From Gammaproteobacteria bacterium (GTDB lineage Bacteria; Pseudomonadota; Gammaproteobacteria; Steroidobacterales; Steroidobacteraceae): a stretch of DNA of 64,000 nucleotides. The notes beneath the pieces were generated by a model, which saw only the letters and a program-made list of their open reading frames with translations, searched no databases and was not told the DNA's origin. The position numbers and the translations under genes are program-made. The DNA lies in assembly GCA_004297335.1 (NCBI GenBank), contig SCUD01000140.1, forward strand, positions 1 through 64,000, given 5' to 3'. The stretch's first letter is position 1; the number at the start of each line of letters is the position of its first letter. Shown here one piece after another: positions 3,539 to 22,261 of the stretch.

Positions 3539-3753
3539 TTGGACTCCGTAGTTGTCTTGTTGACGGGGTCTGAATGAACGCGCTGGTTGCCAGAGAAGCC
3601 AAGCTCAAACTCGCTCGCTTCGGCGATATGTGCGGACTGTTCCGCGCCGCAGATCCGCAGGCGTGCCAGGCCGTTGGCCAGCAACGACGCGATCTCGTGG
3701 CGACGCTGAACCGGCGTCATCCGTTCCGGTGGTAGATGATTGATTTGATGCAT
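3535..3753 (-). CDS. Small hypothetical protein (72 aa) of the recombinase operon
   Basis: Overlaps the DUF2924 start by 4 nt; no domain recognised. Confidence 0.55.
   Translation of the reverse strand: MHQINHLPPERMTPVQRRHEIASLLANGLARLRICGAEQSAHIAEASEFELGFSGNQRVHSDPVNKTTTESK
3574..3604 (-). promoter_or_regulatory. 31-bp leader repeat, copy A (upstream of DUF2924)
   Basis: ATGAACGCGCTG-GTTGCCAGA-GAAGCCAAGC. Confidence 0.75.
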
Positions 3754-3878
3754 GGGTAGCGGTCCTCTCCGTCAAACTCACATGCAGTGAAATTGTCCGG
3801 ATGGACTGCCGCCGACACCATGAGGGAGTTTCGGATGCGTGCGGGCTGGTGCAGGCTATTGCGGAAAGCGGGTCCCGT

Positions 3879-5093
3879 TCAGCTCGACAAATGACGCGCC
3901 AGCATAGTGCTCATGAGCGAGTTTCCGGGCTGCGCACCGGCGGTCATCGCCCGGATCTGCTCGTTGATGCGCTGGGCGGAAACGCCTGCACCAGGAGCCG
4001 CCTGCATCACCGCCGCATACGCATCGAGCACATCACCGCCAGTGATCTCGTAACCGTGGCCTCGCGAGATCCAATGCAGTGCAGCCAGTCCCGCCGCCAG
4101 CGCGAAGTGCGACTGCTTCTCAGCGTAATCACGGGCGGCGCGCGTCAGCGTGCGCGGATCGGTCGGGCTGCGCGTGGCCAACTCGATCGCCACATCGAAC
4201 AGGCCCGCATCCTTGGCGGCAGCAAACCACTTACCTTCTGCGCCCGGCGTGCTGGCAATCAGGTCGCGCAGGATTTGCTCCGGCGGCACGCTGGGGTATT
4301 TCTTTGCGATGGCACGAAAGGTGGCCAGGTTCGTGGTGCCCTGATTGGCCGCCACGGCATAGCGTTGGTAGGCCTCGTCGGCCAAACCTGAAGACAACAG
4401 GATGGCTTCGCAGGACTGGGCGATTTGCCAGCCCGGATCATTGAGTCCGCGCGACTCCTCGGCGTAGCGAATTGCCTCAGCTTTCTTGCCCATCGCCGAC
4501 AAGGCTTTCACACCCCAGCGTCGGTCGTGCCACCACTTGAACCGCGCCTTGTCGATCAGGGTCAGCAACTCGTCATAGCGACCCGCCGCGAACAGCGCGG
4601 ACAGGCAGGCACTGGTGCCCTTGAAGAATCCATGCCCCGATGCATTCGGGTTCCACACGCTTTCAACAACGGGCATGAACTCGTCGGCCCAGCGTGATGC
4701 CAGTTCCGGCGTCACGCACAGTTCGCCCCAGTAGTCGCCCAGCAGTTCGATGTAGGGCATCTCGTCGTCCTGCAAGGCCTGCCATAGCCGCTCCAGCCAG
4801 CGTTGCCGCTGCTTCGGCTCGACGTCGGCCTTGACGATGATTGGCACGAGGGTATCGATGGCCTTGTTGACCGCCGAACCCAGGACACCCGATGAACTGT
4901 CCACCTGTTCCAGCGCCGGCGAGAGTTTTTCCAGTAGGGTAATGGCGCCTTCAGCCGCGAGCACAGGCTCCTTGCGGGCGACCTGCTTGATCTCCGCGAT
5001 GGCTTCCTTGATCCGTTGCACCGGCGTGTCGGACCGCCAGCCGAATGCGTGGCGGCGGAAACGGGAGGCGAATTGCCACTTGTAGGCTGTCAT
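3879..5093 (-). CDS. Hypothetical protein, possibly helical-repeat (404 aa)
   Basis: Alpha-helical, TPR-like composition; last gene of the putative XRE-ImmA operon. Confidence 0.65.
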   Translation of the reverse strand: MTAYKWQFASRFRRHAFGWRSDTPVQRIKEAIAEIKQVARKEPVLAAEGAITLLEKLSPALEQVDSSSGVLGSAVNKAIDTLVPIIVKADVEPKQRQRWLERLWQALQDDEMPYIELLGDYWGELCVTPELASRWADEFMPVVESVWNPNASGHGFFKGTSACLSALFAAGRYDELLTLIDKARFKWWHDRRWGVKALSAMGKKAEAIRYAEESRGLNDPGWQIAQSCEAILLSSGLADEAYQRYAVAANQGTTNLATFRAIAKKYPSVPPEQILRDLIASTPGAEGKWFAAAKDAGLFDVAIELATRSPTDPRTLTRAARDYAEKQSHFALAAGLAALHWISRGHGYEITGGDVLDAYAAVMQAAPGAGVSAQRINEQIRAMTAGAQPGNSLMSTMLARHLSS

Positions 5094-5110
5094 GCTCGGC
5101 GACCCATTGG

Positions 5111-6022
5111 CTATCGCACCGGGTACTGGCCGTTGCGGATGAACCGGTCGTAGGTGTCTTCCTCCGGTTCCTCGTCATCGTGGCGAGCTCCCTGCCACTC
5201 GGCTTCTGGCAGCAACAGCAACGTCAGCGTGTAGTCGTACTGACCGGCAATCCTGATCATTTCGTTGACCTGCATGCTTTCCGGTTCACGTGGAAACCAA
5301 AGCTGCGCCCGTGCAGATTGCTGTTGGCTGCCGGCCCAGCCGTTATTGCTGTGCGCCAGCGCATCACCCGGCAGTTCGATGGTGTTTCTGCGGGTCGCGA
5401 AGTAGGCGCCAGACTTCAGCGCCGCCTTGTTCGACTTGGCCCACAGCATGTGATCGTCACGGCTGGCCACCAACACGGCGCGTTTGGGTGCGATCTCGGT
5501 CCAGCGCAAGGCGGCGGCCGTCAGCGACACACCATAGCGGTCGGCGCAGCGGCCCAGCAGATCGAAGCTGATCGGCTGACCATCCACCTGGCGCCGGAAG
5601 TCGTCGAGCGGCATCAGCAAGGTCGAGGCGAACAAATCCGCCTCGACCTCGATGTCGCGTTCGTTGTTGTCGCCCGTTTCGATGTCACCGTCGCCGCACT
5701 GAAAAATATCCTGCTGGTGACGGTGCAGTATGTAGTGACCGAACTCATGCGCAATTGTGAAGCGCTTGCGACCCTCCGACGGAGTGGCACTGTTGTAGAG
5801 GATCAGCCACTTCGATTTCGCCTTGTTGGCTTTCAGCAGACCATCAAAACCTTCCAGATCCGTGCCTTCGACCCTGTCGATCGGCGAGTCTGCGAAACAC
5901 TGACGCGAATACTCCAGCGCCAGCTCGTCAACCTTGACCGGAAACCGATCCGCACCGATCACCGTGTTGAGCATGGACGAGATGCGGTTGGCCTCGGCCA
6001 TGGGCTTTTTCGCATCCGTCAT
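5111..6022 (-). CDS. ImmA/IrrE family zinc metallopeptidase
   Basis: 'RKRFTIAHEFGHYILHRH' HEXXH motif; N-terminus overlaps the XRE gene stop by 4 nt. Confidence 0.92.
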   Translation of the reverse strand: MTDAKKPMAEANRISSMLNTVIGADRFPVKVDELALEYSRQCFADSPIDRVEGTDLEGFDGLLKANKAKSKWLILYNSATPSEGRKRFTIAHEFGHYILHRHQQDIFQCGDGDIETGDNNERDIEVEADLFASTLLMPLDDFRRQVDGQPISFDLLGRCADRYGVSLTAAALRWTEIAPKRAVLVASRDDHMLWAKSNKAALKSGAYFATRRNTIELPGDALAHSNNGWAGSQQQSARAQLWFPREPESMQVNEMIRIAGQYDYTLTLLLLPEAEWQGARHDDEEPEEDTYDRFIRNGQYPVR

Positions 6023-6339
6023 TCATCTTCCCAGGCTTCGAGGATCTTGCGGAGCTTCTTCTTGTCCGGCTCCGACATGGTTTTGTATTTGCGGAAGAAC
6101 GCCTCGTCGAGTACCGCCTCGTCCGGCGTCGCCGTGGACTCGGTCAGCAGGAACTCCGTGGTGACGTCGAGGACGGCGGCGATCTTTCCGATCTTGTCGG
6201 CCGATGGTTTCGGCTCGTCCTTGTTCTCCAGTTCCCAGATGTAGCTCTTGCTGGAGTCGGTCATTTCGGCCAACTGTTCCAGGCTGAGCTTCTTCTGCTT
6301 CCGCAACGCGCGGATCTTGTCCCCCAAGGGCGATGGCAC
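6019..6339 (-). CDS. XRE-family repressor-like regulator (GTG start)
   Basis: VPSPLGDKIRALRKQKKLSLEQLAEMTDSSKSYIWELENKDEPKPSADKIGKIAAVLDV... HTH_3 fold. Confidence 0.88.
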   Translation of the reverse strand: MPSPLGDKIRALRKQKKLSLEQLAEMTDSSKSYIWELENKDEPKPSADKIGKIAAVLDVTTEFLLTESTATPDEAVLDEAFFRKYKTMSEPDKKKLRKILEAWEDE

Positions 6340-6373
6340 TGGTTTCTCCTCATGTGTTGGCGTCAGGCCGAAA

Positions 6374-6461
6374 ATAATACCACTAGACCGAACGCATTCG
6401 TACCTGCTTGACAAACCCATCATCCGTCCGAGACAATCGTAACCGTTCGGCACACCGAACG
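6374..6461. promoter_or_regulatory. Putative divergent switch region with inverted-repeat operators
   Basis: TTGACA (6408-6413) -18 nt- GACAAT (6432-6437) on +. Operators: CGAA-CGCA-TTCG (6389-6400) and CGTTCGG-CACA-CCGAACG (6444-6461). A TATTAT on the - strand (6374-6379) could be the -10 box for the XRE gene. Confidence 0.6.
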
Positions 6462-6544
6462 CCATCGGTCTGCACACCCCAATCGGAAAAAGGGGCCGTC
6501 GGGGCTGATACCAAGCCAATCCAAACCTTTTGAGGGGTATGTAG

Positions 6545-7774: not shown

Positions 7775-8741
7775 TCTGATCGACTTGTTCGAGCAGTCAG
7801 GGCAGCCGATTGTCGGTGGCGACGGACAGCGGCTTCGCGGGGTGCCCGGCTGGAGCATCTTGGGGCAGACATCCCTGACCGCTAAGCAGGTGGAACAATG
7901 GGCCGATTGTGTCGGCTACGCCGGCAGCTACCCTGCGCCGCTCGACGACGATCGCGTACACGTCGACCTGATGGAAGACGATCAGCCCGATCGCTATCGA
8001 TACCGGTGCCCCGAGACCTTTCGGTGGAAATTCGTCTCGGCTGCTGAGGTCGCCGTCTACAGCGTTCGACCCGCTGCGATCCTGAACGTCGTCGCCGATC
8101 TTCTCGGTATCGCACAGGCCCTGCGCAAGGGCATTGAGGCGCCCCTGCTGGACGATTCCCTCTGGCATTTGGGTAAGGCCAGAGTCGGACCAGCACTGAC
8201 AGATATCTGGATCGTTCGCGGGTTGACGCAATCCATCGAGCAGCTGTTTCGGCACTTCAGTCAGACGAGTCTTCCTGAGCAAGGCCTGATCTTGTCGTCG
8301 GGCAGCGTGTTGCCGCAGTTCGTGCGGCCACCGCGTAGCTACCGCTTCGCGTCGCTTCGAGATGCAATTGTCGACTACGTCGCGACGCCATGCATCGACA
8401 TGGATCTGTTGCATCGGATCCTGTCCGCTCCGCCCGATGGCGAGATCCGACCAGTGTTGCCGGTGCACTTTGACGAGTACACCAACACACTGACCATCCG
8501 CACAAAGACCAAGCCCTGGACGATCAAAGGCGAGCGCCAGGCTGCGGCAGTCCGCTACATGTTCGAGCAGGCCATCAACGACAGGTGGCTTCTCCCAGCC
8601 GCCGAAATTCTCGGCGCAGCCTATGCGGACAAGAAGACGGCTCGCAGTCAGCGTATGCAGAACCTGTTCAGTGGCAACACCGACTGGGAGGACTACATCG
8701 ACAACCCTGAAAAGGGGAAGTATGGCTTCCGCCGAGATTGA
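7737..8741 (+). CDS. Hypothetical protein (334 aa)
   Basis: Overlaps the 409-aa ORF; C-terminus looks wHTH-like; followed by a terminator. Confidence 0.7.
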   Translation: MSSKPLSTLSLLDLIDLFEQSGQPIVGGDGQRLRGVPGWSILGQTSLTAKQVEQWADCVGYAGSYPAPLDDDRVHVDLMEDDQPDRYRYRCPETFRWKFVSAAEVAVYSVRPAAILNVVADLLGIAQALRKGIEAPLLDDSLWHLGKARVGPALTDIWIVRGLTQSIEQLFRHFSQTSLPEQGLILSSGSVLPQFVRPPRSYRFASLRDAIVDYVATPCIDMDLLHRILSAPPDGEIRPVLPVHFDEYTNTLTIRTKTKPWTIKGERQAAAVRYMFEQAINDRWLLPAAEILGAAYADKKTARSQRMQNLFSGNTDWEDYIDNPEKGKYGFRRD

Positions 8742-8770
8742 CCAGCCACCTGTTGGCAGCACCACGCACA

Positions 8771-8923: not shown

Positions 8924-9136
8924 GTGAGTGTCAAACATCTGAATCAAGGCCAGTTGGCCGAACGCTGGGGAGTCAGCGAAGCCACGCTTGAACGCTGGCG
9001 TTCCGAAGGCATCGGCCCGGTATTTCTGAAGCTGCAAGGTCGCGTCGCGTATCGCGTCGAGGACATCGAAGCCTACGAAACCGAGAGCCTGCGCAAGAGC
9101 ACCTCTGAACGCGTCAATGCCGGAGGTGCCCTGTGA
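8924..9136 (+). CDS. Excisionase/AlpA-like HTH protein (GTG start)
   Basis: VSVKHLNQGQLAERWGVSEATLERWRSEGIGPVFLKLQGRVAYRVEDIEAYE. Confidence 0.8.
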   Translation: MSVKHLNQGQLAERWGVSEATLERWRSEGIGPVFLKLQGRVAYRVEDIEAYETESLRKSTSERVNAGGAL

Positions 9137-9603
9137 ACCGCATCTCCCCCGACGAAGTCCTGACCACCCCGGCCGGCGAACTCGCTGCGCTTGCGAGTGA
9201 ATCGCTGTTCCAGCTCAAGAACGACGCCGCTGATCTCCTGGGTGCAGCCAAGGCGATCGTCGAGCACGTCGATCGCGCACTGGATCTCAAGTACGCCGAC
9301 CGGGCCCACCAGCTGCGCTTGGCCGCAGGCAAGGACACCGGCGTCGTTCATTTCGACGACGGCCATGTCCGCATCACCGCCGATCTGCCCAAGAAAGTTG
9401 ACTGGGATCAGACGCGTCTCGCCGAGATCACCCGACGCATTGCCGCCAACGGTGACGACCCGTCCGAGTACGTGGAAGTCAGCCACCGGATCTCGGAAAC
9501 CAAGTTCAACGCGTGGCCCGAGTCGCTCAAGAGCGCCTTCGCCCCGGCACGCACCCTCAAGACCGGCAAGCCGGGCTTTCGTCTCGCTCTGCTTCAGGAG
9601 TAA
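9133..9603 (+). CDS. Phage-associated hypothetical protein (156 aa)
   Basis: ORF in the early phage operon, 4-nt overlap upstream. Confidence 0.65.
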   Translation: MNRISPDEVLTTPAGELAALASESLFQLKNDAADLLGAAKAIVEHVDRALDLKYADRAHQLRLAAGKDTGVVHFDDGHVRITADLPKKVDWDQTRLAEITRRIAANGDDPSEYVEVSHRISETKFNAWPESLKSAFAPARTLKTGKPGFRLALLQE

Positions 9604-9608
9604 TCGCC

Positions 9609-9923
9609 ATGAAAAGCAAACCTACGCTGCTCGAACTGCTTCGCAAACAGCCGGAGATGTACCTCCGGGATCTGCCCGAAACCATCCGCATCCCAGCGCT
9701 GGACGGCAACCGCCCCGACGAAGTCCTGCGTCGGCTGGAGGACGCCACCATCGATGACGTGGCATTCGCGATCCAGGGCCTGGAGTCCGAAACCCGCGTT
9801 ATCCATCGGCGCCTGAGTGGCCTGCGCGACCTGTACGAAATGGCCCGCAAGCGCGGCGCGCTGGGCATGACCACCGTTGCTGACGCGTTCGCCAACATCA
9901 GCACCGAGGAGGCCGGCAAATGA
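9609..9923 (+). CDS. Phage-associated hypothetical protein (about 104 aa)
   Basis: ATG at 9609; 4-nt overlap with the next gene. Confidence 0.6.
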   Translation: MKSKPTLLELLRKQPEMYLRDLPETIRIPALDGNRPDEVLRRLEDATIDDVAFAIQGLESETRVIHRRLSGLRDLYEMARKRGALGMTTVADAFANISTEEAGK

Positions 9924-10795
9924 GCCTCCCCATCATTACTGCAGACCAGCGCCTGGCCGAGCGCCGTGGCGTAAAAGGCGTGCTCGTCGGCAAGAGCGGC
10001 ATCGGCAAGACTTCGCAACTCTGGACGCTGAAACCCACGGCCACACTGTTCTTTGATCTCGAGGCCGGGGATCTGGCTGTCGAGGGCTGGGCGGGTGACA
10101 CGATCCGCCCGCGCACCTGGCAGGAGTGCCGAGACTTCGCGGTGTACATCGGCGGGCCGAACCCGGCGCTGCGCGACGACCAGCCGTTCAGCCAAGCCCA
10201 CTTCGATGCCGTGTGCGCGCGTTTCGGTGACCCGTCGGTCCTGGACAAGTACGACACGGTGTTCGTCGACTCCATCACCGTGGCCGGTCGCTTGTGCCTG
10301 CAATGGTGCAAGGGACAGCCCCAGGCCTACTCCGAGAAGACCGGCAAACCCGACAGTCGGGGGGCATACGGGCTGATGGGCCAGGAAATGATCGCCTGGC
10401 TGACCCACCTGCAGCACACGCGCGGCAAGAACGTGTGGTTCGTCGGCATCCTCGACGAGAAGCTCGATGACTTCAATCGCCGCGTGTTCTCGCTGCAGAT
10501 CGACGGCTCGAAAACCGGACTGGAACTGCCCGGAATCGTCGACGAGGTCGTCACTCTGGCCGAGCTGAAGGCCGATGACGGTGCCAGTTACCGCGCCTTC
10601 GTTTGCCACACGCTGAACGCGTGGGGCTACCCCGCCAAGGACCGCTCTGGCCGGCTCGATCCGATTGAGGAGCCGCACCTCGGCCGCCTCATGGAAAAGA
10701 TCGCTGGCCCTGCCAAGCCCGCCATCGAGCGGCTTGAGTTCGCACGCCCAGCGCCCGTTGCCACCCCCGAATCCACTTCGACTCAGGAGTCCTGA
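9920..10795 (+). CDS. Phage ATP-binding protein (RecA/Sak4-like NTPase)
   Basis: Walker A 'GKSGIGKTSQLWTL', 'YDTVFVDSITVAGRL'; recombination-module context. Confidence 0.78.
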   Translation: MSLPIITADQRLAERRGVKGVLVGKSGIGKTSQLWTLKPTATLFFDLEAGDLAVEGWAGDTIRPRTWQECRDFAVYIGGPNPALRDDQPFSQAHFDAVCARFGDPSVLDKYDTVFVDSITVAGRLCLQWCKGQPQAYSEKTGKPDSRGAYGLMGQEMIAWLTHLQHTRGKNVWFVGILDEKLDDFNRRVFSLQIDGSKTGLELPGIVDEVVTLAELKADDGASYRAFVCHTLNAWGYPAKDRSGRLDPIEEPHLGRLMEKIAGPAKPAIERLEFARPAPVATPESTSTQES

Positions 10796-10797
10796 TC

Positions 10798-11409
10798 ATG
10801 ACCTACTTCGATTTCAATTCCGCTTCCGAACAAACCTCTTTCGACCTGATCCCCAAGGGCACCCTGGTGCGTGTCCGCATGACCATCAAGCCGGGCGGCT
10901 TCGATGATCCGTCGCAGGGATGGACCGGCGGCTATGCCACCCGCAACGACAACACCGGCTCGGTGTACCTGAACTGCGAGTTCGTCGTCATGGAGGGTGA
11001 GTTCGCCCGTCGCAAGATGTGGTCGCTGGTCGGTCTGCACAGTCCCAAGGGACCCGAGTGGGCCAACATGGGCCGCACTTTCGTCAAGGCGATCCTCAAC
11101 TCGGCGCGCGGTGTTCATCCTGGCGATAACAGTCCTGCCGCGCAGAACGCGCGCCGCATCAGCGGGTTTGCCGATCTCGATGGCATCGAGTTTCTCGGCA
11201 AGGTCGACTGGGACAAGGACCAGAACGGCCAGGACAAGAGCGTGATCAAGGCAGCGATCACGCCCGACCGCAAGGACTACGCCGCACTCATGGGCGGAGC
11301 GAGCGGAGCGGCGAAGGCTGCGGCGCCGGCGCCAGCGAATGGGTCGAACGCGTATGCCCAGGCCACGGGCCGTGCCTCCGTGCCGGGCCGCCCGAGCTGG
11401 GCACAGTAA
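10798..11409 (+). CDS. Phage ssDNA-binding/recombination-associated protein (putative)
   Basis: Immediately downstream of the ATPase gene; OB-like 'LVRVRMTIKPGG', low-complexity acidic/Ala C-terminus. Confidence 0.55.
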   Translation: MTYFDFNSASEQTSFDLIPKGTLVRVRMTIKPGGFDDPSQGWTGGYATRNDNTGSVYLNCEFVVMEGEFARRKMWSLVGLHSPKGPEWANMGRTFVKAILNSARGVHPGDNSPAAQNARRISGFADLDGIEFLGKVDWDKDQNGQDKSVIKAAITPDRKDYAALMGGASGAAKAAAPAPANGSNAYAQATGRASVPGRPSWAQ

Positions 11410-11422
11410 GGGGGACGCCGCC

Positions 11423-13099
11423 ATGATGCTTCGCCCCCGCCAAGCCCTGTTGGTCGAGCGCTCACTGGCGGCTCTCGCCCAACACGGGAACACCCTGTCT
11501 GTTGGCCCCACCGGGTCTGGCAAAACCATCATGCTGTCGGCGGTGGCCGGCGGCCTGTTGGTCGAGCCGGATGCCAAAGCCTGCATTCTCGCCCACCGCG
11601 ATGAACTGACCGGTCAGAACCTATCCAAGTTTGCACGGGTGAATCCGGGCATCAGCACCTCCGTGTTCGATGCCAAGGACAAATCCTGGTCCGGGCGCGC
11701 CACGTTCGCGATGGTGCAAACGCTGTCACGCGACAACCATCTTGCCGCCATCCCGATCCTCGATCTGCTCGTGATCGATGAGGCGCATCACGCAGCCTCG
11801 GCATCGTACCGCCGCGTGATCGACCGGGTGCTGGACAAGAACCCACGCACCCAGATCTTCGGGGTGACCGCGACGCCAGCCCGCAGTGACGGCAAGGGTC
11901 TGCGAGAAGTATTCAGCAACGTTGCGGATCAAATCACGCTCGGCGAATTGATCGCCTCCGGTCACCTCGTGCCGCCACGCACCTTCGTCATTGATGTCGG
12001 CGCGCAGGAGCAGTTGACGCGGGTCCGGCGCACGGCCACCGACTTTGACATGTCGGAAGTTGAGGCGATTCTCAACAAGACGCCCATCACCGATGCCGTG
12101 ATCCGTCAGTGGCGCGAGAAGGCCGGCGACCGCAAGACGATCGTGTTCTGCTCGACTGTTGCCCATGCCGAGTGCGTGCGGCAGGCATTTCAGGATGCCG
12201 GTGTATCCGCCGTGATCGTGCACGGCGAGCTGTCCGATGCGGAGCGCAAGGCGCGCCTTGCCGACTACGAATCCGGCGCCGCGCAGGTGGTTGTCAACGT
12301 GGCCGTGCTCACGGAGGGCTACGACTTCACGCCCACGTCCTGCGTGGTTCTGCTGCGACCCAGCTCGCACAAGTCAACGCTGACCCAGATGATCGGGCGC
12401 GGCCTGCGAACGATCGATCCAACGGAGCATCCTGGCGTCATCAAGACCGATTGCGTGGTCCTGGACTTCGGCACCGCGACCTTGATGCACGGCTCTCTGG
12501 AACAGGACGTCAATCTCGACGGGCACCAGCATCACGGTGAGGCGCCCACCAAGGACTGCCCGTCCTGTGAAGCCACCGTCCCGCTCGGCTGCCGTGAATG
12601 CCCGCTGTGCGGCTTCGTCTGGGAGAACGAGCACGCCGACGACACTGACGCACTGGCCGATTTCGTGATGACCGAGATCGATCTGCTCAAGCGCTCGAAC
12701 TTCCGCTGGTGCGATCTGTTTGGCTGTGACGACGCCTTGATGGCGACCGGCTTCAACGCCTGGGGCGGCGTGTTCTTCCTCAATGGACGTTGGCATGCCG
12801 TGGGCGGCGGGAACGATCTGCAGCCACGTTTGCTGGCAGTCGGCGATCGCACGGTTTGCATGGCCAAAGCCGATGACTGGCTGAACGACCGCGAGTCGGC
12901 GGACTCCGCGCACAAGACCCGACGCTGGTTGAACGAACCGCCAACGCCGAAGCAACTGCAGTATCTGCCGCAGGCGCTGCGCGCCGACTTTGGCATGACG
13001 CGCTATCAGGCCTCGGCGCTGCTGTCATTCCAGTTCAACAAATCGTCGATTCAGCGCCTCGTGGTGGCTGCCAACGATGCCCACCGGGAGGCCGCGTGA
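11423..13099 (+). CDS. SF2 DEAD/DEAH-box helicase with zinc-ribbon
   Basis: 'GPTGSGKTIML', 'LLVIDEAHHA', 'MIGRGLRT', CxxC...CxxC cluster. Confidence 0.93.
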   Translation: MMLRPRQALLVERSLAALAQHGNTLSVGPTGSGKTIMLSAVAGGLLVEPDAKACILAHRDELTGQNLSKFARVNPGISTSVFDAKDKSWSGRATFAMVQTLSRDNHLAAIPILDLLVIDEAHHAASASYRRVIDRVLDKNPRTQIFGVTATPARSDGKGLREVFSNVADQITLGELIASGHLVPPRTFVIDVGAQEQLTRVRRTATDFDMSEVEAILNKTPITDAVIRQWREKAGDRKTIVFCSTVAHAECVRQAFQDAGVSAVIVHGELSDAERKARLADYESGAAQVVVNVAVLTEGYDFTPTSCVVLLRPSSHKSTLTQMIGRGLRTIDPTEHPGVIKTDCVVLDFGTATLMHGSLEQDVNLDGHQHHGEAPTKDCPSCEATVPLGCRECPLCGFVWENEHADDTDALADFVMTEIDLLKRSNFRWCDLFGCDDALMATGFNAWGGVFFLNGRWHAVGGGNDLQPRLLAVGDRTVCMAKADDWLNDRESADSAHKTRRWLNEPPTPKQLQYLPQALRADFGMTRYQASALLSFQFNKSSIQRLVVAANDAHREAA

Positions 13100-13160
13100 C
13101 AAATGATCAGGAACGAACATTTGCACCGCCGTCAGGCGGCCCGAAGGGTGGCGTACAGGG

Positions 13161-13592
13161 ATGTACGCCATGAAATGTGCAGTCTGCTCCCGAAAGGCCA
13201 AGGGCTTCGGCTACTTCAATCCCCGACTCCCGCGCACCGACCCACGACGTTACTCGGACCGCTGGGTGTTCTGCTCCATGCGCTGCCAGAGCGCCTTTTC
13301 GCGTCTGATGGAAAAGACGGGAGGTCACATGATCGATCCCAGTGATATGGAGGTCGCCGCTATGGCGTCCTGCCTGGCACCGCTTGGCGAGTATGTGGGC
13401 TCCATCGGCATGCAGCGACCGCTGGCGGACTACAGCAAAGACGAAGTGCTGATGCTGATCGACGTGGTGGTGACTGCCTACCAGGAACACATGCTCGTCG
13501 AGCACGAGCGGATGGCGGAAAAGGATCGCGCCTTTCTTGAGGAGCGACTTGCCCGCCAGGGCAAGCCTGCTTCGACGGGAGTGCCGTTCTGA
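13161..13592 (+). CDS. Phage DUF6511-like Cys-containing protein (start may be 13170)
   Basis: MKCAVCSRKAKGFGYF...RWVFCSMRCQ zinc-binding pattern. Confidence 0.65.
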   Translation: MYAMKCAVCSRKAKGFGYFNPRLPRTDPRRYSDRWVFCSMRCQSAFSRLMEKTGGHMIDPSDMEVAAMASCLAPLGEYVGSIGMQRPLADYSKDEVLMLIDVVVTAYQEHMLVEHERMAEKDRAFLEERLARQGKPASTGVPF

Positions 13593-14347
13593 TGCTGGAT
13601 TTCAACCATCGCCCCAAGATCCATGAGCAGATCGGCGTGCTCATCGACGCCGCGCTGAGCTCCGATCGTGACAACCAATCCCGGCGCAACTACCTCGGTG
13701 CGTCCAGGTTGGGCGTTGCCTGCGAGCGCGCGCTGCAATACGAGTATCTGCAAACACCCGTCGATCCTGGCAGGGACATCCCGGGTCGCGTGCTGCGCAT
13801 CTTCGAGGTGGGACACGCCCTCGAAGAGCTGGCCATCCGCTGGCTGCGCATGGCCGGATTCGAGCTGTACACACAGAAGGCCGGTGGCGGTCAGTTCGGC
13901 TTTTCGGTCGCGGGCGGCCGCATCCAGGGGCACGTGGACGGCGTGCTGAACGGCGGTCCCGCAGCGCTTGGCATGGCCTATCCCGCCCTGTGGGAGTGCA
14001 AGACCATGAATGACAAGTCCTGGCGGGACACGGTCAAGCACGGCGTCAGCAAATCCAAGCCCGTCTATGCCGCGCAGATGGCTGTCTACCAGGCCTACAT
14101 GGAAGCCAGCGTGCCGGGCATCTCGGCGAACCCGGCGTTGTTCACCGCCATCAACAAGGACTCCGAGGAAATCTGGTTCGAGCTGGTGCCGTTCGACGGC
14201 GGCCTGGCGCAGCGGATGTCCGATCGCGCGGTTCGGGTCATCACGGCGACGGAGATTCATGAGCTGTTGCCGCGCCATGCCACCACGCCGACGCATGTCG
14301 AGTGCAAGTTCTGCCCCTGGCAGGACCGCTGCTGGGGTTCGACATGA
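13592..14347 (+). CDS. PD-(D/E)XK exonuclease, Cas4/AddB-like with 4-Cys cluster
   Basis: 'GHVDGVLNG...LWECKTMN' nuclease core; N-terminal Cys ('ACERALQ') and C-terminal C-x2-C-x5-C ('CKFCPWQDRC'). Confidence 0.8.
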   Translation: MLDFNHRPKIHEQIGVLIDAALSSDRDNQSRRNYLGASRLGVACERALQYEYLQTPVDPGRDIPGRVLRIFEVGHALEELAIRWLRMAGFELYTQKAGGGQFGFSVAGGRIQGHVDGVLNGGPAALGMAYPALWECKTMNDKSWRDTVKHGVSKSKPVYAAQMAVYQAYMEASVPGISANPALFTAINKDSEEIWFELVPFDGGLAQRMSDRAVRVITATEIHELLPRHATTPTHVECKFCPWQDRCWGST

Positions 14348-16533
14348 TGGCCGACAACATCATCTGGCTCGATTTCAACGACGCACCCGAGCAGCGCGAA
14401 GAGCTGGCATCGGACACCGACGCGCTGCGCGCCGGGCTGCTGGACCGGCTCGAGACCGTCCTCCACTACCTGTTTCCGCAGGGGCGCATCCGAGGTGGCA
14501 AGTTCTACGTCGGTGATGTTGACGGCAACCCCGGCAAGAGCCTGGTGGTTGAGCTCGACGGGCCACGGCGTGGCCTGTGGAAAGACTTCTCCACCGACGA
14601 GGGTGGCGACGTCATCGATCTATGGGCGCGGTCGCAGGGTCGCTGCGCCCGGAGCGACTTCCCACGCATCGCCGGTGAAATCCGGCAGTGGCTCGGTATT
14701 GCTCCCCCGAGCGTCACGCCGATGCGCCGCGATGTTCGCAGCGTGCCGATGGACGACCTCGGCGCCTACACCACCAAGTGGGACTACCTATCACCTCAGG
14801 GTGAACTGATCGCCTGCGTCTACCGGTACGACCCGCCGACGGGCAAGGAATACCGCCCCTGGGATGTTCGCGCCCGCATGTGGCGCGCACCCGACCCGAG
14901 GCCGCTCTACAACCAGCCGGCCATCGCAAAAGCGCGAGAGATTGTCCTGGTCGAAGGCGAGAAGTGTGCGACTGCCCTCATCGCCTGCGGCATTGCGGCC
15001 ACCACCGCGATGAACGGAGCCAAGGCGCCTGTGGACAAAACCGACTGGCGTCCGCTGGCCGGGAAATCAGTCGTCATCTGGCCAGACCGGGATGCACCCG
15101 GCTGGGACTACGCCGAAAGCGCAGCGCGTGCTTGCGTGGCTGCAGGCAGTACGTCCGTGGCCATCCTGGTGCCGCCGACCGACAAGCCGGCCAAGTGGGA
15201 CGCCGCAGACGCTGTCGACGAAGGCTTCGACTGCGCAGCATTCATCAGCCAGGGCGAACGTCGCGTGGTCAAGGCAGCGGCTCCCTCTCTGCCCACTTTC
15301 ACGATGGGCGAACTGCTCGACGACAACTCACCGCTGCCACCGGATCTAATCTCCCCACGCGTGCTAACCCCGGCAGGCATGTTGGTGTTCGGTGGCGCGC
15401 CCAAGGTTGGCAAGAGTGATTTCTTGCTGTCGTGGCTGGCGCACATGGCGGCTGGCGCTGCATTTCTGGGCATGCAGCCACCCCGTCCGCTACGGGTGTT
15501 CTATCTGCAGGCCGAGGTCCAGTACCACTACTTGCGCGAGCGCGTGAAGGATGTCCGCCTGCCGTCCCACCGGCTTCTGGACGCCCGCACCAACTTCGTC
15601 GCCACACCGCAGTTGCGGCTGGTGCTCGATGACGCCGGTCTCGCTCAGGTGATCCCCGCGATTGCGACCGCCTTCGGCGGCGAGCCGCCCGACATCATCG
15701 CCATCGACCCGATCCGTAACGTATTCGACGGCGGCGATGCCGGTGGTGAGAACGACAACGGCGCCATGCTGTTCTTCCTGTCGCAGCGGGTGGAGCGGAT
15801 TCGCCAGGCGGTGAATCCGGACGCCGGGGTCATCCTCGCGCACCACACCAAGAAGCTCGGCAAGAAGCAGTTCGAGGAGGACCCGTTCCAGGCGCTGGCC
15901 GGCGCGGGAAGTCTGCGCGGCTACTACTCGACCGGGATGCTGCTGTTCCGGCCCGACGAGACGCGCACGACTCGCCAGCTCATTTACGAACTACGCAACG
16001 GTGCGGGCATCCCGCAAAGACACGTCGACAAGATCAACGGCGAGTGGCGCGAGGTCGATGCCAACGAGCGGCTGGTGATGAAGGACTACGGCCAGCGCTT
16101 GGATGCCGAGCGCCGCCGCAAACGCGACGCGATCCTTCAGATCCTGTTCGAGGAGGCCGGCAACGGGCGCTGCTACACCGCCAACCAATTCGCGGAGTCC
16201 TTCGAGGGGAAAGCAGGCCTGGGCGGCGAGCGCACGATCCGTGAACGCGTGTCCGCGCTCTCAACGCAGGGCTACATCAAGTACTTCCGCAACGCGGCTG
16301 ACTACGGTCTGCCCTCCAGCGGCCGCACCAAGTTCGGCTATCTCTGCGTCGAAGGCATGGTGCTGCGCATACCGGCGGGCGATGTCGACACGGCCACCGG
16401 CGAGCTGCCGATACGCGAGCACACGGTGCTCCCCACCCACTACAAGTGCCCGCATTCCGGCGCCTCGATGCCCGTCGAGAACCCCGACGTGTGGGTCTAT
16501 CACGACGAACTGAACGATCCGGAGGCCGCATGA
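14344..16533 (+). CDS. Phage primase-helicase (TOPRIM + RepA-like AAA ATPase)
   Basis: TOPRIM-like 'EIVLVEGEKCATAL...VVIWPDRDAPG', Walker A 'GAPKVGKSDFLL'. Confidence 0.88.
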   Translation: MMADNIIWLDFNDAPEQREELASDTDALRAGLLDRLETVLHYLFPQGRIRGGKFYVGDVDGNPGKSLVVELDGPRRGLWKDFSTDEGGDVIDLWARSQGRCARSDFPRIAGEIRQWLGIAPPSVTPMRRDVRSVPMDDLGAYTTKWDYLSPQGELIACVYRYDPPTGKEYRPWDVRARMWRAPDPRPLYNQPAIAKAREIVLVEGEKCATALIACGIAATTAMNGAKAPVDKTDWRPLAGKSVVIWPDRDAPGWDYAESAARACVAAGSTSVAILVPPTDKPAKWDAADAVDEGFDCAAFISQGERRVVKAAAPSLPTFTMGELLDDNSPLPPDLISPRVLTPAGMLVFGGAPKVGKSDFLLSWLAHMAAGAAFLGMQPPRPLRVFYLQAEVQYHYLRERVKDVRLPSHRLLDARTNFVATPQLRLVLDDAGLAQVIPAIATAFGGEPPDIIAIDPIRNVFDGGDAGGENDNGAMLFFLSQRVERIRQAVNPDAGVILAHHTKKLGKKQFEEDPFQALAGAGSLRGYYSTGMLLFRPDETRTTRQLIYELRNGAGIPQRHVDKINGEWREVDANERLVMKDYGQRLDAERRRKRDAILQILFEEAGNGRCYTANQFAESFEGKAGLGGERTIRERVSALSTQGYIKYFRNAADYGLPSSGRTKFGYLCVEGMVLRIPAGDVDTATGELPIREHTVLPTHYKCPHSGASMPVENPDVWVYHDELNDPEAA

Positions 16534-16745: not shown

Positions 16746-16756
16746 GAAAACTCCCC

Positions 16757-16847: not shown

Positions 16848-17309
16848 GTGCCGTCGATCCTGGCGCTGGACCTTGGCACCCAGACCGGCTGGGCTGTGCG
16901 CGACCGCGAAGGCGCCGTGACCACCGGGTCGGAATCCTTCAAGCCGCAGCGCTTTGAGGGTGGCGGCATGCGCTACCTCCGCTTCAAGCGCTGGCTCACC
17001 GAGATCAAGCAGTCGTGTGATGGCATTGACGCCGTGTACTTCGAGGAGGTCCGTCGCCATGCCGGTGTCGATGCGGCACACGCCTACGGCGGGTTCATGG
17101 CCCACCTCACTGCCTGGTGCGAGCACCACCAGATCCCCTATCAGGGCGTTCCGGTGGGCACGATCAAGAAACACGCTACCGGCAAAGGCAACGCAAACAA
17201 GGACCAGATGATCACTGCCGCGCAGTTGCGTGGCCACGCGCCTGCCGATGACAACGAAGCCGACGCCATTGCACTCCTGCACTGGGCCATCGAGACACAG
17301 GAGGTGTGA
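16848..17309 (+). CDS. RuvC-like Holliday junction resolvase
   Basis: 'SILALDLGTQTGWAV...VYFEEVRRH...DNEADAIALLHWA' RuvC fold. The ORF is open from 16530, but the conserved domain starts at an in-frame GTG (16848), after the repeats. Confidence 0.8.
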   Translation: MPSILALDLGTQTGWAVRDREGAVTTGSESFKPQRFEGGGMRYLRFKRWLTEIKQSCDGIDAVYFEEVRRHAGVDAAHAYGGFMAHLTAWCEHHQIPYQGVPVGTIKKHATGKGNANKDQMITAAQLRGHAPADDNEADAIALLHWAIETQEV

Positions 17310-17310
17310 G

Positions 17311-17523
17311 ATGAAGGTTCCGACTCCCGCATACCGCTGTGCCCTGGCTCGGCTGCAGCCTGATCCGCGACCCGATCCGGAGCAGATCAAACGCGAAGGC
17401 TGGCGTGAGCAACAGATCCTGGTGATCTCACCAGACGATGCGCGGCTCGACTGGGTCGAACGCGAACTGCTACGCCGGATCGGTGAACGGCTGTACGGGC
17501 CGAAGGAGCGTCGACATGGCTGA
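17311..17523 (+). CDS. Small phage hypothetical protein
   Basis: ATG at 17311 after an SD; overlaps the next gene by 8 nt. Confidence 0.55.
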   Translation: MKVPTPAYRCALARLQPDPRPDPEQIKREGWREQQILVISPDDARLDWVERELLRRIGERLYGPKERRHG

Positions 17524-17920
17524 GTGGACGATCGAGACCGTGGCCGATCGGTTCATCGAGGCCGCACGAACCGCCCACCGCCTTCCTCCGGTTCGGGTAC
17601 AGGGCTACTTCAACTGCTGGCCAGCGATCAAGCGCATGCCCTGGGAAAACCTCGGCGCCGAGCCGCCGGTCTACCGCTTTCCTCCTGACCCTGCTGCCAT
17701 CGACCGGATGCTGGAGACGATGCAGTGGGTCCAGTGGCTGGACGAGGAACAGCGTCACCTCGTCTGGATGCGGGCGCAACGCTACCCTTGGAAGGACATC
17801 TGTTGCCGCTTTGCCTGTGACCGGACAACCGCCTGGCGTCGCTGGCAGACGGCACTGGAGCTGGTCGCCGTGCACCTGCGGATGGAAAAGAAACCTGGGG
17901 CAGCAGGCAACTGCCGCTGA
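17516..17920 (+). CDS. DUF6362-like phage protein
   Basis: MAEWTIETVADRFIEAARTAHRLPPVRVQGYFNCWP...; HTH-like C-terminus 'WKDICCRFACDRTTAWRRWQTAL'. Confidence 0.7.
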   Translation: MAEWTIETVADRFIEAARTAHRLPPVRVQGYFNCWPAIKRMPWENLGAEPPVYRFPPDPAAIDRMLETMQWVQWLDEEQRHLVWMRAQRYPWKDICCRFACDRTTAWRRWQTALELVAVHLRMEKKPGAAGNCR

Positions 17921-18058
17921 CGTTGGGTGTAGTTGCGAACAGTCGCGAAGCCGTTGGGAATCCTGCGTAACGCTGCGGGTTTCAGTCACTTATTGGTGTG
18001 CAACATCCTGAGGTTTTTTCGCTAGTATTACGGCTAATCTTGCGAGCATTGGGTGCGT

Positions 18059-18204
18059 GAAGGCCACGGAGCGATCTGTGGCCTTCGTCATTTCCGGCCC
18101 GCGATGGCCAGGACCTGTTGCAACGGGTCCTTCCTGGCCAAAAACCAATGCGGGGGGCGCGAGCGCGGCGCTTTTTTAGCGTCAGATAGCAAACCTAGGT
18201 TTGC
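18059..18204. repeat. Structured intergenic region: two hairpins and a 16-bp palindrome
   Basis: GAAGGCCAC/GTGGCCTTC (18059-18086), TGGCCAGGA/TCCTGGCCA (18105-18140), GCAAACCTAGGTTTGC (18189-18204). Confidence 0.85.
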
Positions 18205-18248
18205 AGGGTTTGCAGTTTGCACCCACCGCATCCAGCACAGATCACGAG

Positions 18249-18283
18249 CCCGCCCACGGTTTCCCGTCGGCGGGTTTTCTTTT
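18249..18283 (+). terminator. Putative rho-independent terminator
   Basis: CCCGCC..ACGG-TTTC-CCGT..GGCGGG followed by TTTTCTTTTT. Confidence 0.75.
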
Positions 18284-18303
18284 TCGAGGAACTGATTCTG
18301 AAC

Positions 18304-19707
18304 ATGCTCAACGTCGAGTACCGCAAGGTCGAGGCGCTGATCCCCTATGCCCGCAATCCGCGCACGCACACCGACCAGCAGGTGGCCAAGATCGCCGCCA
18401 GCATCGTCGAGTACGGCTGGACTAACCCGGTCCTGGTGGATGGTGATAACGGCATCATCGCCGGCCACGGCCGCATGGCTGCCGCGCGCAAGCTGGGACT
18501 CGATGAAGTACCAGTGATCGAACTGGCTCACCTGTCAGTGTCACAAAAGCGCGCCTACGTCATCTCCGACAACCGGCTGGCACTTGATGCCGGTTGGAAT
18601 GAGGAACTGCTGGCACTGGAACTGGCCGAGTTGTCCGAGGCTGGGTACGACCTGGCGCTAACCGGCTTCGAGGATGCGGAGATCGAGGCGTTACTGGCGG
18701 ATGACGCGGCAGCTGAAGATATCAGCCAGGCGCAAAATGCCGATGAACCGGACGCCGCAGACGACGTGCCCGATGCGCCTGCCGTGCCGGTTTCCCGCAT
18801 CGGTGACGTCTGGGCCATCGGCCCTCACCGATTGATCTGCGGTGACGCCACCGACCGGACTGTGGTCGCCACGCTGATGCAAGGCGACGCGGGGCGCCTG
18901 TGCTTCACCTCGCCGCCCTATGGCAACCAGCGCGACTACACCAGCGGCGGCATCGCGGATTGGGATGGCCTGATGCGCGATGTGTTCGGCAATGTGCCGA
19001 TGGCCGACGATGGGCAGGTGCTGGTCAACCTCGGGCTGATCCACCGCGACAACGAAGTCATCCCGTATTGGGACGCGTGGCTCAGCTGGATGCGCACGCA
19101 AGGCTGGCGGCGCTTCGCCTGGTACGTCTGGGATCAAGGTCCGGGCATGCCTGGCGACTGGGCCGGGCGCTTCGCCCCGAGCTTCGAGTTCGTCTTCCAC
19201 TTCAACCGGCAGAGCCGCAAGCCCAACAAGATCGTGCCCTGCAAGCATGCGGGCCAGGAGTCGCATCTGCGTGCCGATGGCTCATCCACGGCGATGCGCG
19301 GTAAGGATGGCGAAGTGGGCGGCTGGACGCACAAGGGCCAGCCCACGCAAGACACCCGGATTCCTGACTCGGTGATCCGCGTGATGCGCCACAAAGGCAA
19401 GATCGGTCAGGACATCGACCACCCAGCCGTGTTCCCGGTGGCCCTGCCGGCGTTCGCCATCGAGGCCTACACCGGTACAGGTGACATTGTGTTCGATCCG
19501 TTCGGTGGCAGCGGCACAACGATGCTGGCTGCCCAACGCACCGGCCGCGTTAGCCGCACGGTCGAGATCGCGCCCGGGTACGTGGATGTTGCCATCAAAC
19601 GCTTCCAGCAGAACCACCCCGCCGTGCCTGTCACGCTGCTGGCCACTGGCCAGTCCTTTGACGACGTCGCCAATGAACGTCTGGCCGCCACGGAGGAAGA
19701 GCAATGA
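18304..19707 (+). CDS. ParB-like domain + DNA methyltransferase fusion (SPPY)
   Basis: ParB-like 'VEALIPYARNPRTHTDQQ...GIIAGHGR'; MTase 'FTSPPYGNQRDY' then 'FDPFGGSGTTMLA'. Confidence 0.92.
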   Translation: MLNVEYRKVEALIPYARNPRTHTDQQVAKIAASIVEYGWTNPVLVDGDNGIIAGHGRMAAARKLGLDEVPVIELAHLSVSQKRAYVISDNRLALDAGWNEELLALELAELSEAGYDLALTGFEDAEIEALLADDAAAEDISQAQNADEPDAADDVPDAPAVPVSRIGDVWAIGPHRLICGDATDRTVVATLMQGDAGRLCFTSPPYGNQRDYTSGGIADWDGLMRDVFGNVPMADDGQVLVNLGLIHRDNEVIPYWDAWLSWMRTQGWRRFAWYVWDQGPGMPGDWAGRFAPSFEFVFHFNRQSRKPNKIVPCKHAGQESHLRADGSSTAMRGKDGEVGGWTHKGQPTQDTRIPDSVIRVMRHKGKIGQDIDHPAVFPVALPAFAIEAYTGTGDIVFDPFGGSGTTMLAAQRTGRVSRTVEIAPGYVDVAIKRFQQNHPAVPVTLLATGQSFDDVANERLAATEEEQ

Positions 19708-20975
19708 ACGCCTCCTGGCTTGCCGACAAGATCGAGCAGTGGCCCACCGCCAAGCTGGTGCCCTATGCCCGCAACGCACGAACGCACTCGGATGATCAGG
19801 TGACACAGATCGCTGCGTCGATTGCCGAGTTCGGGTTCACCAATCCGATCCTGGCGGGCAGCGATGGCGTTATCGTCGCCGGACACGGACGGCTCGCCGC
19901 TGCCCAGAAGCTGGGCCTGGAGATCGTGCCGGTGGTCGTGCTCGACCATCTGAGCCCCACGCAGCGCCGGGCGCTGGTGATTGCCGACAACCGCATCGCC
20001 GAGAACGCGGGTTGGGACGAGGCGATGCTGCGCATCGAAATGGCTGACCTGCTGGACGCCGACTTCGATCTGTCGCTCACCGGTTTCGATGCGGACGCGC
20101 TGGCCGAGTTGATGGCGGGCGATGAGCCGGATGGTGCGGGCGAAACCGATGACGATGCGGTGCCCGAGGTGTTCGAGACACCCATCTCGCGCTCGGGCGA
20201 CGTCTGGCTGCTTGGCGGTCACCGCCTGTTGTGTGGCGACTCCACCGTGGCGGAGAGCTACGACCGCCTTCTCGATGGAACGGAGGTAGACATGGTCTTC
20301 ACCGATCCGCCGTACAACGTGAACTACGCCAACAGCGCCAAAGACAAGATGCGCGGCAAGGATCGCGCGATCCTGAATGACAACCTCGGCGACGGCTTCT
20401 ACGATTTCCTGCTGATGGCTTTGACGCCGACCATCGCGCATTGCCGGGGTGGAATCTACGTGGCGATGTCGTCCAGCGAACTGGATGTGCTGCAGGCCGC
20501 ATTCCGCGCAGCCGGTGGCAAGTGGTCGACGTTCATCATCTGGTCCAAGAACACCTTCACGCTGGGCCGCGCCGACTACCAGCGCCAGTACGAGCCGATC
20601 CTGTACGGATGGCGCGAGGGCGCGCAACGCCACTGGTGTGGCGACCGCGATCAGGGTGACGTCTGGCACATCAAGAAGCCGCAGAAAAACGACCTGCACC
20701 CAACGATGAAGCCAGTGGAACTGGTCGAGCGGGCGATTCGCAATTCGAGCCGTCCCGGCAACGTAGTGCTCGACCCCTTCGGTGGTTCCGGAACGACGCT
20801 GATCGCCGCCGAGAAATCGGGGCGCGTGGCACGGATGATCGAACTCGATCCGAAGTACGTCGATGTGATCGTGCGCCGTTGGCAGGGCTGGACATGCAAG
20901 CAGGCAACCCGGGAATCGGATGGCGCGTTGTTCGATGATCAGGCGACGAGCGAGTCCTCGACGATCTCGCAGTGA
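19704..20975 (+). CDS. ParB-like domain + DNA methyltransferase fusion (DPPY)
   Basis: 'KLVPYARNARTHSDDQ...VIVAGHGRLAAAQKLG'; 'FTDPPYNVNY', 'LDPFGGSGTTLIAAE'. Confidence 0.93.
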   Translation: MNASWLADKIEQWPTAKLVPYARNARTHSDDQVTQIAASIAEFGFTNPILAGSDGVIVAGHGRLAAAQKLGLEIVPVVVLDHLSPTQRRALVIADNRIAENAGWDEAMLRIEMADLLDADFDLSLTGFDADALAELMAGDEPDGAGETDDDAVPEVFETPISRSGDVWLLGGHRLLCGDSTVAESYDRLLDGTEVDMVFTDPPYNVNYANSAKDKMRGKDRAILNDNLGDGFYDFLLMALTPTIAHCRGGIYVAMSSSELDVLQAAFRAAGGKWSTFIIWSKNTFTLGRADYQRQYEPILYGWREGAQRHWCGDRDQGDVWHIKKPQKNDLHPTMKPVELVERAIRNSSRPGNVVLDPFGGSGTTLIAAEKSGRVARMIELDPKYVDVIVRRWQGWTCKQATRESDGALFDDQATSESSTISQ

Positions 20976-21307
20976 ATCACAAAGCCCGTCAGATAAGGCA
21001 GGCCGCGCGGGATGCCGTACTGCTTGCTGGTCTGGCGGCCAATCGTCCAGCTCATCCAGCGCTGAGTGGCGGCGTTGATTGCTTCTGCCAGGGTCTGCCC
21101 TTGGTACAGCCCGTTCTGGACATCGTCCGCAAAGTGGCGTCCGTGGCGGCTGTCGAGGAAGACCCGTACCGACTCGAGGGGCTGGCTCGTGGCGTTCGAG
21201 ACGGCGGTCATCGCCAAGGGCCACGCGGCGCTGGCGCGCTCGTTCATCGTGCCCCAAAAGCCCCAGCTTTCGTTCTGGGTAGCAGGGATCTGGTTCGTGG
21301 TGTTCAT
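20939..21307 (-). CDS. Phage-associated hypothetical protein (leader-repeat gene 1)
   Basis: MNTTNQIPATQNESWGFWGTMNERASAAW...; ATG at 21307 with SD AAGGAG. Confidence 0.72.
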   Translation of the reverse strand: MNTTNQIPATQNESWGFWGTMNERASAAWPLAMTAVSNATSQPLESVRVFLDSRHGRHFADDVQNGLYQGQTLAEAINAATQRWMSWTIGRQTSKQYGIPRGLPYLTGFVIHCEIVEDSLVA

Positions 21308-21344
21308 CGTTGGCTCCTTGGGGTCTGATCGTTGCGACACCCGT

Positions 21345-21375
21345 AGTAACGCGCTGTTCGATTGAGAAGCCAAGC
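21345..21375 (-). promoter_or_regulatory. 31-bp leader repeat, copy B
   Basis: AGTAACGCGCTG-TTCGATTGA-GAAGCCAAGC (+ strand reading). Confidence 0.8.
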
Positions 21376-21405
21376 GGGTCTTGGCCTCTTTCTCGATCTT
21401 TCTGA

Positions 21406-21921
21406 TCAGGCAATCCGGTAGATCCGCTCACCACCCGTGGCCTTGTCCGAGACGATGGTCAGACCAAGCTTTTTCTTGAAGGCGCCGGCAAAGGTGCCGC
21501 GCACGGTGTGCGCCTGCCATCCGGTCGCGCCGCAGATCTGAGCAATGGTGGCGCCTTCGGGGCGCTGCAGCATCCGGAGCACTTCGGCCTGCTTGCTGTT
21601 CTCGCGGGTACGCGGTTTGGGCTGCGCTGTGGCGGTCGCCTTGGCCCACGTGGCCTCGGCTGTCGTCACGGCGGCTTCGATCTCGGGGTCTGACGCGACA
21701 GGCGCGGGACGAGCCCGCCCCATCGCGTCGTAGCCCTCGGCGGCAACGAACCAATCGGTACCGTCGGTGGTGATCAGGGCACGATTAAAAAGGCCGTCGA
21801 TGACCTTCTTGCGAGCGCCGCCTTTGATGTTGTCGGGGAACCAGTCGATCTTGCCGCCGGTGTGTTCGAGGGCGTAGGCCAGTATCGCGTGCTGGGCTGG
21901 GGTGAATTGTGTGGTGGTCAT
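21406..21921 (-). CDS. DUF3489 domain protein (leader-repeat gene 2)
   Basis: 'SKQAEVLRMLQRPEGATIAQICGATGWQAHTVRGTFAGAFKKKLGL' DUF3489 signature. Confidence 0.88.
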   Translation of the reverse strand: MTTTQFTPAQHAILAYALEHTGGKIDWFPDNIKGGARKKVIDGLFNRALITTDGTDWFVAAEGYDAMGRARPAPVASDPEIEAAVTTAEATWAKATATAQPKPRTRENSKQAEVLRMLQRPEGATIAQICGATGWQAHTVRGTFAGAFKKKLGLTIVSDKATGGERIYRIA

Positions 21922-21957
21922 TTTCTGCTCCTTGGCAGTGGTTGATGGGGTGACGTG

Positions 21958-21988
21958 ATGAACGCGCTGTTCGCAATTGAAGCCAAGC
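21958..21988 (-). promoter_or_regulatory. 31-bp leader repeat, copy C
   Basis: ATGAACGCGCTG-TTCGCAATT-GAAGCCAAGC. Confidence 0.8.
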
Positions 21989-22006
21989 GTTTTTTCCGCT
22001 TCTTTC

Positions 22007-22195
22007 TCAGTCCGACTTCGCAGCCTGCCGACCCGCCTCGTAAGCGGCCATCAGGGCGCTTTTGACGGCCCAGACGCTGACATCGTGGAAGTCCATTCGG
22101 TCGCTGTTGCGAGTCTCCAAGGACTCGATGAACAGGTGGTCTAGCGCAATCTTTTGGAGCAGGTTTTCGAGGGCTTTGTCGTCTTGCCTGGTCAT
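22007..22195 (-). CDS. DUF6900-like small protein (leader-repeat gene 3)
   Basis: MTRQDDKALENLLQKIALDHLFIESLETRNSDRMDFHDVSVWAVKSALMAAYEAGRQ. Confidence 0.78.
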   Translation of the reverse strand: MTRQDDKALENLLQKIALDHLFIESLETRNSDRMDFHDVSVWAVKSALMAAYEAGRQAAKSD

Positions 22196-22230
22196 GTGCG
22201 TCTCCTTGTGACGTTGTTGATGCTGATGAC

Positions 22231-22261
22231 ATGAACGCGCTGTTCCAGATGGAAGCCAAGC
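22231..22261 (-). promoter_or_regulatory. 31-bp leader repeat, copy D
   Basis: ATGAACGCGCTG-TTCCAGATG-GAAGCCAAGC. Confidence 0.8.

Follow-up and report, generated by a model that had tools for sequence, protein, structure and literature searches.

In the CcrM/GcrA system of the Alphaproteobacteria, GcrA has been proposed to work together with sigma-70 where promoters are methylated, according to a passage of PMC7987155 that cites Haakonsen 2015. Here we analyse a stretch of 64,000 nucleotides (the window; contig SCUD01000140.1 of assembly GCA_004297335.1, from a Gammaproteobacteria bacterium of the Steroidobacteraceae), in which a prophage carries four copies of a conserved motif before small genes on the reverse strand. 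What is new here is that this motif exists in two dialects, which match the presence or absence of MT1, a methyltransferase encoded by the prophage. The likeness to the Caulobacter system, as the same passage presents it (PMC7987155), lies in a solitary DNA methyltransferase, a conserved promoter site and a sigma-associated cofactor proposed for methylated promoters. In contrast to CcrM, the prophage enzyme looks like an N4-cytosine type and is prophage-borne, and the regulon consists of small prophage genes. No GANTC is present in the motif consensus, unlike in CcrM/GcrA sites, and the candidate cofactor, DUF6362, appears similar to sigma region 4, unlike GcrA; it matched PF19889 only and no GcrA family, in searches of which none was aimed at GcrA. 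By analogy, the motif regulon resembles CcrM/GcrA in its logic and is not a member of that system.

Phage late activators of the ArpU/RinA type have a helix-turn-helix (HTH) similar to sigma region 4. Like them, DUF6362 is small, bears an HTH and is encoded shortly before the terminase, and it weakly matches phrog_36, a family of transcriptional regulators. Unlike in the ArpU/RinA type, the regulon is made of dispersed single genes on the opposite strand and not of a late operon, and the sequence link is weak. The same prophage layout is found in Acidithiobacillus phage AcaML1 (JX507079; locus L244), with four copies before DUF2924 (gp4), gp28, gp30 and an unannotated DUF6900 gene; the AcaML1-related text that we searched does not mention the motif. 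This motif-bearing DUF6900 gene, at about 22015-22200 (-), is antisense to the annotated terminase small subunit, and the annotated start of gp30 lies upstream of the motif.

A conserved motif before small prophage genes

A first, sequence-only reading of the window had described four copies of a 31-bp leader repeat. We recovered all four on the minus strand, where GCTTGGCTTC-N9-CAGCGCGTT is matched exactly at 3577-3604, 21348-21375, 21961-21988 and 22234-22261. When up to three mismatches were allowed, the window gave the same four sites only (0.05 expected from shuffled sequence), and the next best sites in the rest of the 3.96 Mb genome have two to three mismatches, which is roughly what a control with the reversed pattern gives. 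The distances of 35, 37, 36 and 35 nt between the 31-nt repeat and the start codons agree with the sequence, and the downstream labels DUF2924, DUF3489 and DUF6900 are correct. The 9-nt spacer has the same length in the four copies, as had been noted, and is in part conserved, its last three bases (3′) being GAA in most copies; the conserved element also reaches 3 nt beyond the pattern then described, as CGTT-CAT or -ACT.

The motif is widespread. Our profile searches and locus sets are samples, and the counts given below hold among the matches listed. The exact pattern occurs in at least 120 stretches in IMG/VR and in at least 115 in GTDB genomes, mostly Beta- and Gammaproteobacteria, with some Alphaproteobacteria, Nitrospira and Geobacter. 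Of 440 collected copies, 424 stand before an open reading frame (ORF), and the distance from the motif end to the start codon is 37-39 nt in 280 of these and 30-44 nt in 394. The proteins downstream belong to over a dozen small, mutually unrelated families (DUF3489, 104; the 122-aa family, 88; DUF6900, 73; a 119-aa family, 32; DUF2924, 27; plus smaller ones), most without a Pfam family. All 22 large viral records examined harbor two to nine copies each, clustered close to the terminase, usually with one extra copy beside the serine recombinase. In the order to which the host belongs, 296 genomes were searched, and good sites are restricted to those with this type of prophage. The search suggested at the outset, here and in other genomes with the downstream families tabulated, found a site at a fixed distance from start codons and neither frequent nor unpositioned in this genome. 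The proposal of a shared promoter or operator defining a regulon of small morons is well supported by the same placement, in hundreds of loci, ahead of many genes that are unrelated to each other, by promoter-like spacing and by a single dialect per prophage. The copies very probably make up a regulon private to one widespread family of temperate phages, each being the promoter of one small prophage gene.

We number the motif from its first G as position 0. Its profile is [AG]CTTGGCTT(C)-N7-(GAA)-CAGCGC-GTTCAT-N5-YRYC, after which come a leader poor in T and rich in CA and a Shine-Dalgarno sequence. A -35-like TTGGCT (positions 2-7) is separated by 17 bp in all copies from a -10-like GTTCAT (25-30). 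The former is near TTGACA and the spacing is that of sigma-70 promoters; the latter (GTTCAT or GTTACT) is not near a TATAAT with A at -11, and its T26 is conserved at 99%. A -10 without consensus is typical of promoters in need of help. In a distant relative (L624), TTGATA or TTGATT takes the place of TTGGCT at unchanged spacing, which adds support for the -35 element. A-rich tracts, spaced by about 11 bp with their centres near motif positions -4, -15 and -26, are UP element-like. A pyrimidine-purine step falls at 36/37, where an initiator is expected; with the predicted +1 at position 37, position 22 becomes -15. These features make it highly likely that the motif is a promoter, with a transcription start site (TSS) predicted as above.

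Coding on the opposite strand (plus reading MNALF...EAK) was rejected because of an in-frame stop in one window copy and varying middle codons, and a LexA-like or GAAC-type extracytoplasmic function (ECF) promoter was set aside by reasoning, its spacing being unsuitable. In a decayed prophage (L519 in G335, at 8343, plus strand), the motif is joined straight to the recombinase coding region, DUF2924 being apparently deleted.

Two dialects and the presence of MT1

A locus that bears DUF6362 but not the canonical motif (L352) led us to a second version, CTTGGCTT-N11-GAA-GCGTTCAT, which has like genes downstream at the same distance. Across loci, positions 20-22 read AGC in 888 copies, GAA in 103 and AGA in 8, while an open search gave AGC 235, AGA 16, GAA 6 and TGC 1. 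The dialects are therefore AGC-GCGTT versus GAA/AGA-GCGTT, position 22 (-15) being C or A (C22 and A22). The change can be seen in the DUF2924 copy of G322, ACTTGGCTTTCATGGCAACCAGAGCGTTCAT, where the GGCAACCAG-(C/A)-GCGTTCAT of the window copy is kept and C22 has become A. No mixing of dialects within a locus was found among 255 AGC and 14 GAA loci with multiple copies. Since the copies of one prophage differ in their middle bases and stand before unrelated genes, yet share a dialect, a single trans-acting determinant per prophage is suggested. The dialect set exceeds two: the related prophages L569, L571, L614 and L624 have further forms (GAGTTGATA, CTTGATTAA and CTTGATCTTCCCGCC with GAAGCGATGAAT), and some of them lack DUF6362 or have another kind of methyltransferase in slot 1 (SPPYATQREY).

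The link between the motif and the prophage methyltransferases, absent from the sequence-only reading, is the key feature of this system. Complete prophages with C22 have both MT1 and MT2, and those with A22 have MT2 alone. In 186 loci with enough flank, 161 were C22 with MT1, 25 were A22 without it and none was crosswise, so that, as in CcrM/GcrA, a solitary methyltransferase is linked to the site. MT1 was confirmed in G018, and the decayed G335 lacks both enzymes. L614, with its different slot-1 methyltransferase and third motif form, was left out of the counts, and L508, an apparent counter-example, proved an artefact, as it carries MT2 alone. Loci selected by MT2 divided into 23 C with MT1 and 13 A without, and those selected by MT1 into 58 C and 0 A; these samples overlap in part in their contigs. 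The C22 form at MT1-positive prophages is AGCGCGTT and the A22 form at MT1-negative ones [GA][AG]AGCGTT. Among the conserved window genes tested, the presence of MT1 alone fits the dialect perfectly, an association by presence and absence that is a correlation.

MT1 has the SPPY (at 232) and FxGxG (FGGSG at 429) of N4-cytosine methyltransferases, and its best named match in the PDB is the N4-cytosine enzyme M.PvuII (E 1e-8); it looks like a putative enzyme of this type. The literature searched offered nothing usable on an N4-methylcytosine target of MT1. In the window MT1 adjoins MT2, and no ORF between DUF6362 and MT2 was assigned as a restriction enzyme.

Trees bear on how often the dialect has switched. 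A single clade of A prophages was rejected by the trees of DUF2924 (p 4e-57) and DUF6362 (p 0.004), as well as by those of DUF3489, HTH_17 and g17230; it was not rejected by the tree of MT2 (p 0.48), which adjoins MT1. In the primase tree, all six supported independent pairs were concordant (p 0.03). The prophage of G324 is 90-96% identical to the window over most replication genes (9133-16533), yet it is A22 and without MT1, and this puts whatever determines the dialect rightward of about 16.5 kb. A parsimony value of 1 for MT1 was discarded as an artefact of MT2 paralogues, and presence or absence was used instead. DUF6362 was rejected as the dialect determinant by its tree, although a role as activator may remain, and individual residues of DUF3489 or DUF6362 associated only imperfectly with dialect.

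Several A22 prophages (L526-L528 in G321, also G318, G323, G331 and G332) carry as many as 10 motif copies, some of which are paired divergently with about 120 bp between them, and many of the leaders contain the GC-rich stem-like sequence CCGCAACGACGCGG.

Table 1. Motif copies and associated genes in the window.
Feature	Position (strand)	Remarks
Motif copy A, before DUF2924	3574..3604 (-)	-35 TTGGCT 3602-3597; C22 3582; -10-like GTTCAT 3579-3574; predicted +1 3567
Motif copy B, before 122-aa gene	21345..21375 (-)	-10-like GTTACT; C22 21353; predicted +1 21338
Motif copy C, before DUF3489	21958..21988 (-)	C22 21966; predicted +1 21951
Motif copy D, before DUF6900	22231..22261 (-)	C22 22239; predicted +1 22224
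DUF2924 gene (PF11149)	3041..3538 (-)	Regulon member; adjoins serine recombinase
122-aa gene (phrog_8020, no Pfam family)	20939..21307 (-)	Regulon member
DUF3489 gene (PF11994)	21406..21921 (-)	Regulon member; predicted helical/winged DNA-binding-like domains
DUF6900 gene (PF21841)	22007..22195 (-)	Regulon member
DUF6362 protein (PF19889)	17438..17920 (+)	Possible sigma-region-4-like fold; candidate co-activator; true start probably internal MAEWT
MT1, ParB_N + N6_N4 methyltransferase	18217..19707 (+), likely start 18304	TSPPY (N4-cytosine type); only in C22-dialect prophages
MT2, ParB_N + N6_N4 methyltransferase	19704..20975 (+)	DPPY (N6-adenine type); in both dialects

A possible mechanism and its rivals

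A profile search detected DUF6362 in 21 of another 22 records, and the one without it is a 23-kb fragment. Its AlphaFold2 model is confident in the C-terminal part, and the top Foldseek matches are to sigma region 4 (TMt 0.76, probability 0.99, but a poor E of 0.5). DUF6362 is a likely candidate co-activator of the motif promoters; no paper naming the family was found in the literature searched. DUF3489 was rejected as reader of the motif, being present without it in G317, G077 and G192 and missing from the motif-bearing G333 and G335.

We lean towards a mechanism in which MT1 would methylate the cytosine at -15, and this mark, together with DUF6362 and the host RNA polymerase, would set the timing or the level of transcription. 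The promoter would be composed of the -35 TTGGCT, a 17-bp spacer, the weak -10-like GTTCAT, a +1 at position 37, a short CA-rich leader and a Shine-Dalgarno sequence, with spacer bases -17 to -15 read or marked by the methyltransferase module of the prophage. MT1 would N4-methylate C22 between the two hexamers, and the mark would modulate a weak promoter read by the host RNA polymerase with DUF6362 as co-activator; the effect would be activating and not repressive. Where A22 replaces the (methyl-)C, the reader could accept both, A:T and N4-methyl-C:G could both ease melting near -12, or MT2 could act on A22. A bolder version, which we hold only tentatively, is a private promoter alphabet, in which the phage's own N4-cytosine methyltransferase would mark -15 in every promoter of the accessory regulon, a sigma-like phage protein would read the mark, and phages losing the enzyme would rewrite all their promoters to adenine.

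Several points weigh against this mechanism. The A dialect is also fully conserved, and therefore methylation by MT1 is not required in all members. Many loci are related or on shared contigs, so that the counts are inflated and the independent dialect switches few, and in trees other than that of the primase there were too few supported pairs, leaving the pair test under-powered. The Foldseek E-values of DUF6362 are 0.5 or worse, and L569 and L614 have an altered motif without DUF6362. Finally, a scan of 20900-22400 for consensus promoters found none there, GTTCAT being a poor sigma-70 -10.

The dialect could instead be read by another, unnamed regulator inherited along with the methyltransferase module, in which case MT1 and MT2 would be no more than linked markers. 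MT1, MT2 and most motif copies do share a stretch of about 4 kb, the MT2 tree follows dialect too and the independent switches are few. However, the DUF2924 copy obeys the dialect rule in 22 of 22 cases (16/16 C and 6/6 A) at a distance of 12-43 kb from the methyltransferase genes, only the presence of MT1 fits perfectly among the conserved window genes tested, and the trees of the adjacent genes g17230, DUF6362 and DUF3489 reject a single A clade; we regard this explanation as rather unlikely.

Repression of their own promoters is known for some type II methyltransferases, and MT1 could similarly be a DNA-binding regulator that occupies the AGCGCG spacer and either blocks RNA polymerase or recruits it, methylation of the site being incidental. 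The same dialect association would be expected, and the extra ParB_N domain of MT1 speaks for this reading. If MT1 were a mere blocker, though, C22 could persist in phages without it, yet this was seen in 0 of 25, and the A form is fully conserved too; on balance we find this unlikely.

It is improbable that the motif is an ordinary sigma-70 promoter whose copies share an operator for a repressor of the host or a phage, and that the methyltransferases are irrelevant to it. The -35-like TTG, the 17-bp spacing and the UP-like A-tracts agree with it, but neither conservation over records of Beta-, Gamma- and Alphaproteobacteria, Nitrospira and Geobacter nor prophage-wide dialects would be expected of a promoter read by the host.

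The sequence-only reading had also put forward an RNA leader and the conserved end of a gene-cassette-like mobile unit. Either of these, or a riboregulator, would account for the tight start-codon distance and for an entire leader common to several gene families, but we consider them very improbable, as transcription is predicted to start downstream of the motif, a possible hairpin (GAAC-N5-GTTC) shows no covariation across copies, Rfam gave no match to the motif, the dialects are tied to a trans-acting gene, and the fixed distance, variable middle bases and trans-dependent dialect fit a protein-read site. Nor was an integron-like palindromic recombination site found at the cassette boundary, the candidate inverted repeat not being maintained.

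Neighbouring genes and significance

To the right of the prophage, at 45562-62583 (-), lies a BREX-type defence locus (BrxB, BrxC, PglX, PglZ, BrxL and a DpdJ/helicase-like protein of 1417 aa), whose PglX is split in two overlapping ORFs (54556-56454 and 56451-58343). Beside the recombinase end, at 242-1246 (+), is an AbiEii-like nucleotidyltransferase toxin gene (PF08843), and the adjoining ORF 7-249 may be its usual antitoxin partner.

Prophage orphan methyltransferases are common, mostly without a known job. Here, one of them is tied base for base to a defined class of promoter across many phages. The match between dialect and methyltransferase suggests, at the level of sequence, gene control by DNA marking; natural C22/A22 recombinants serve as controls, which makes phage-encoded epigenetic gene control directly testable. 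The motif also offers a route to finding moron genes and grouping them by their regulation, and a candidate function for DUF6362.

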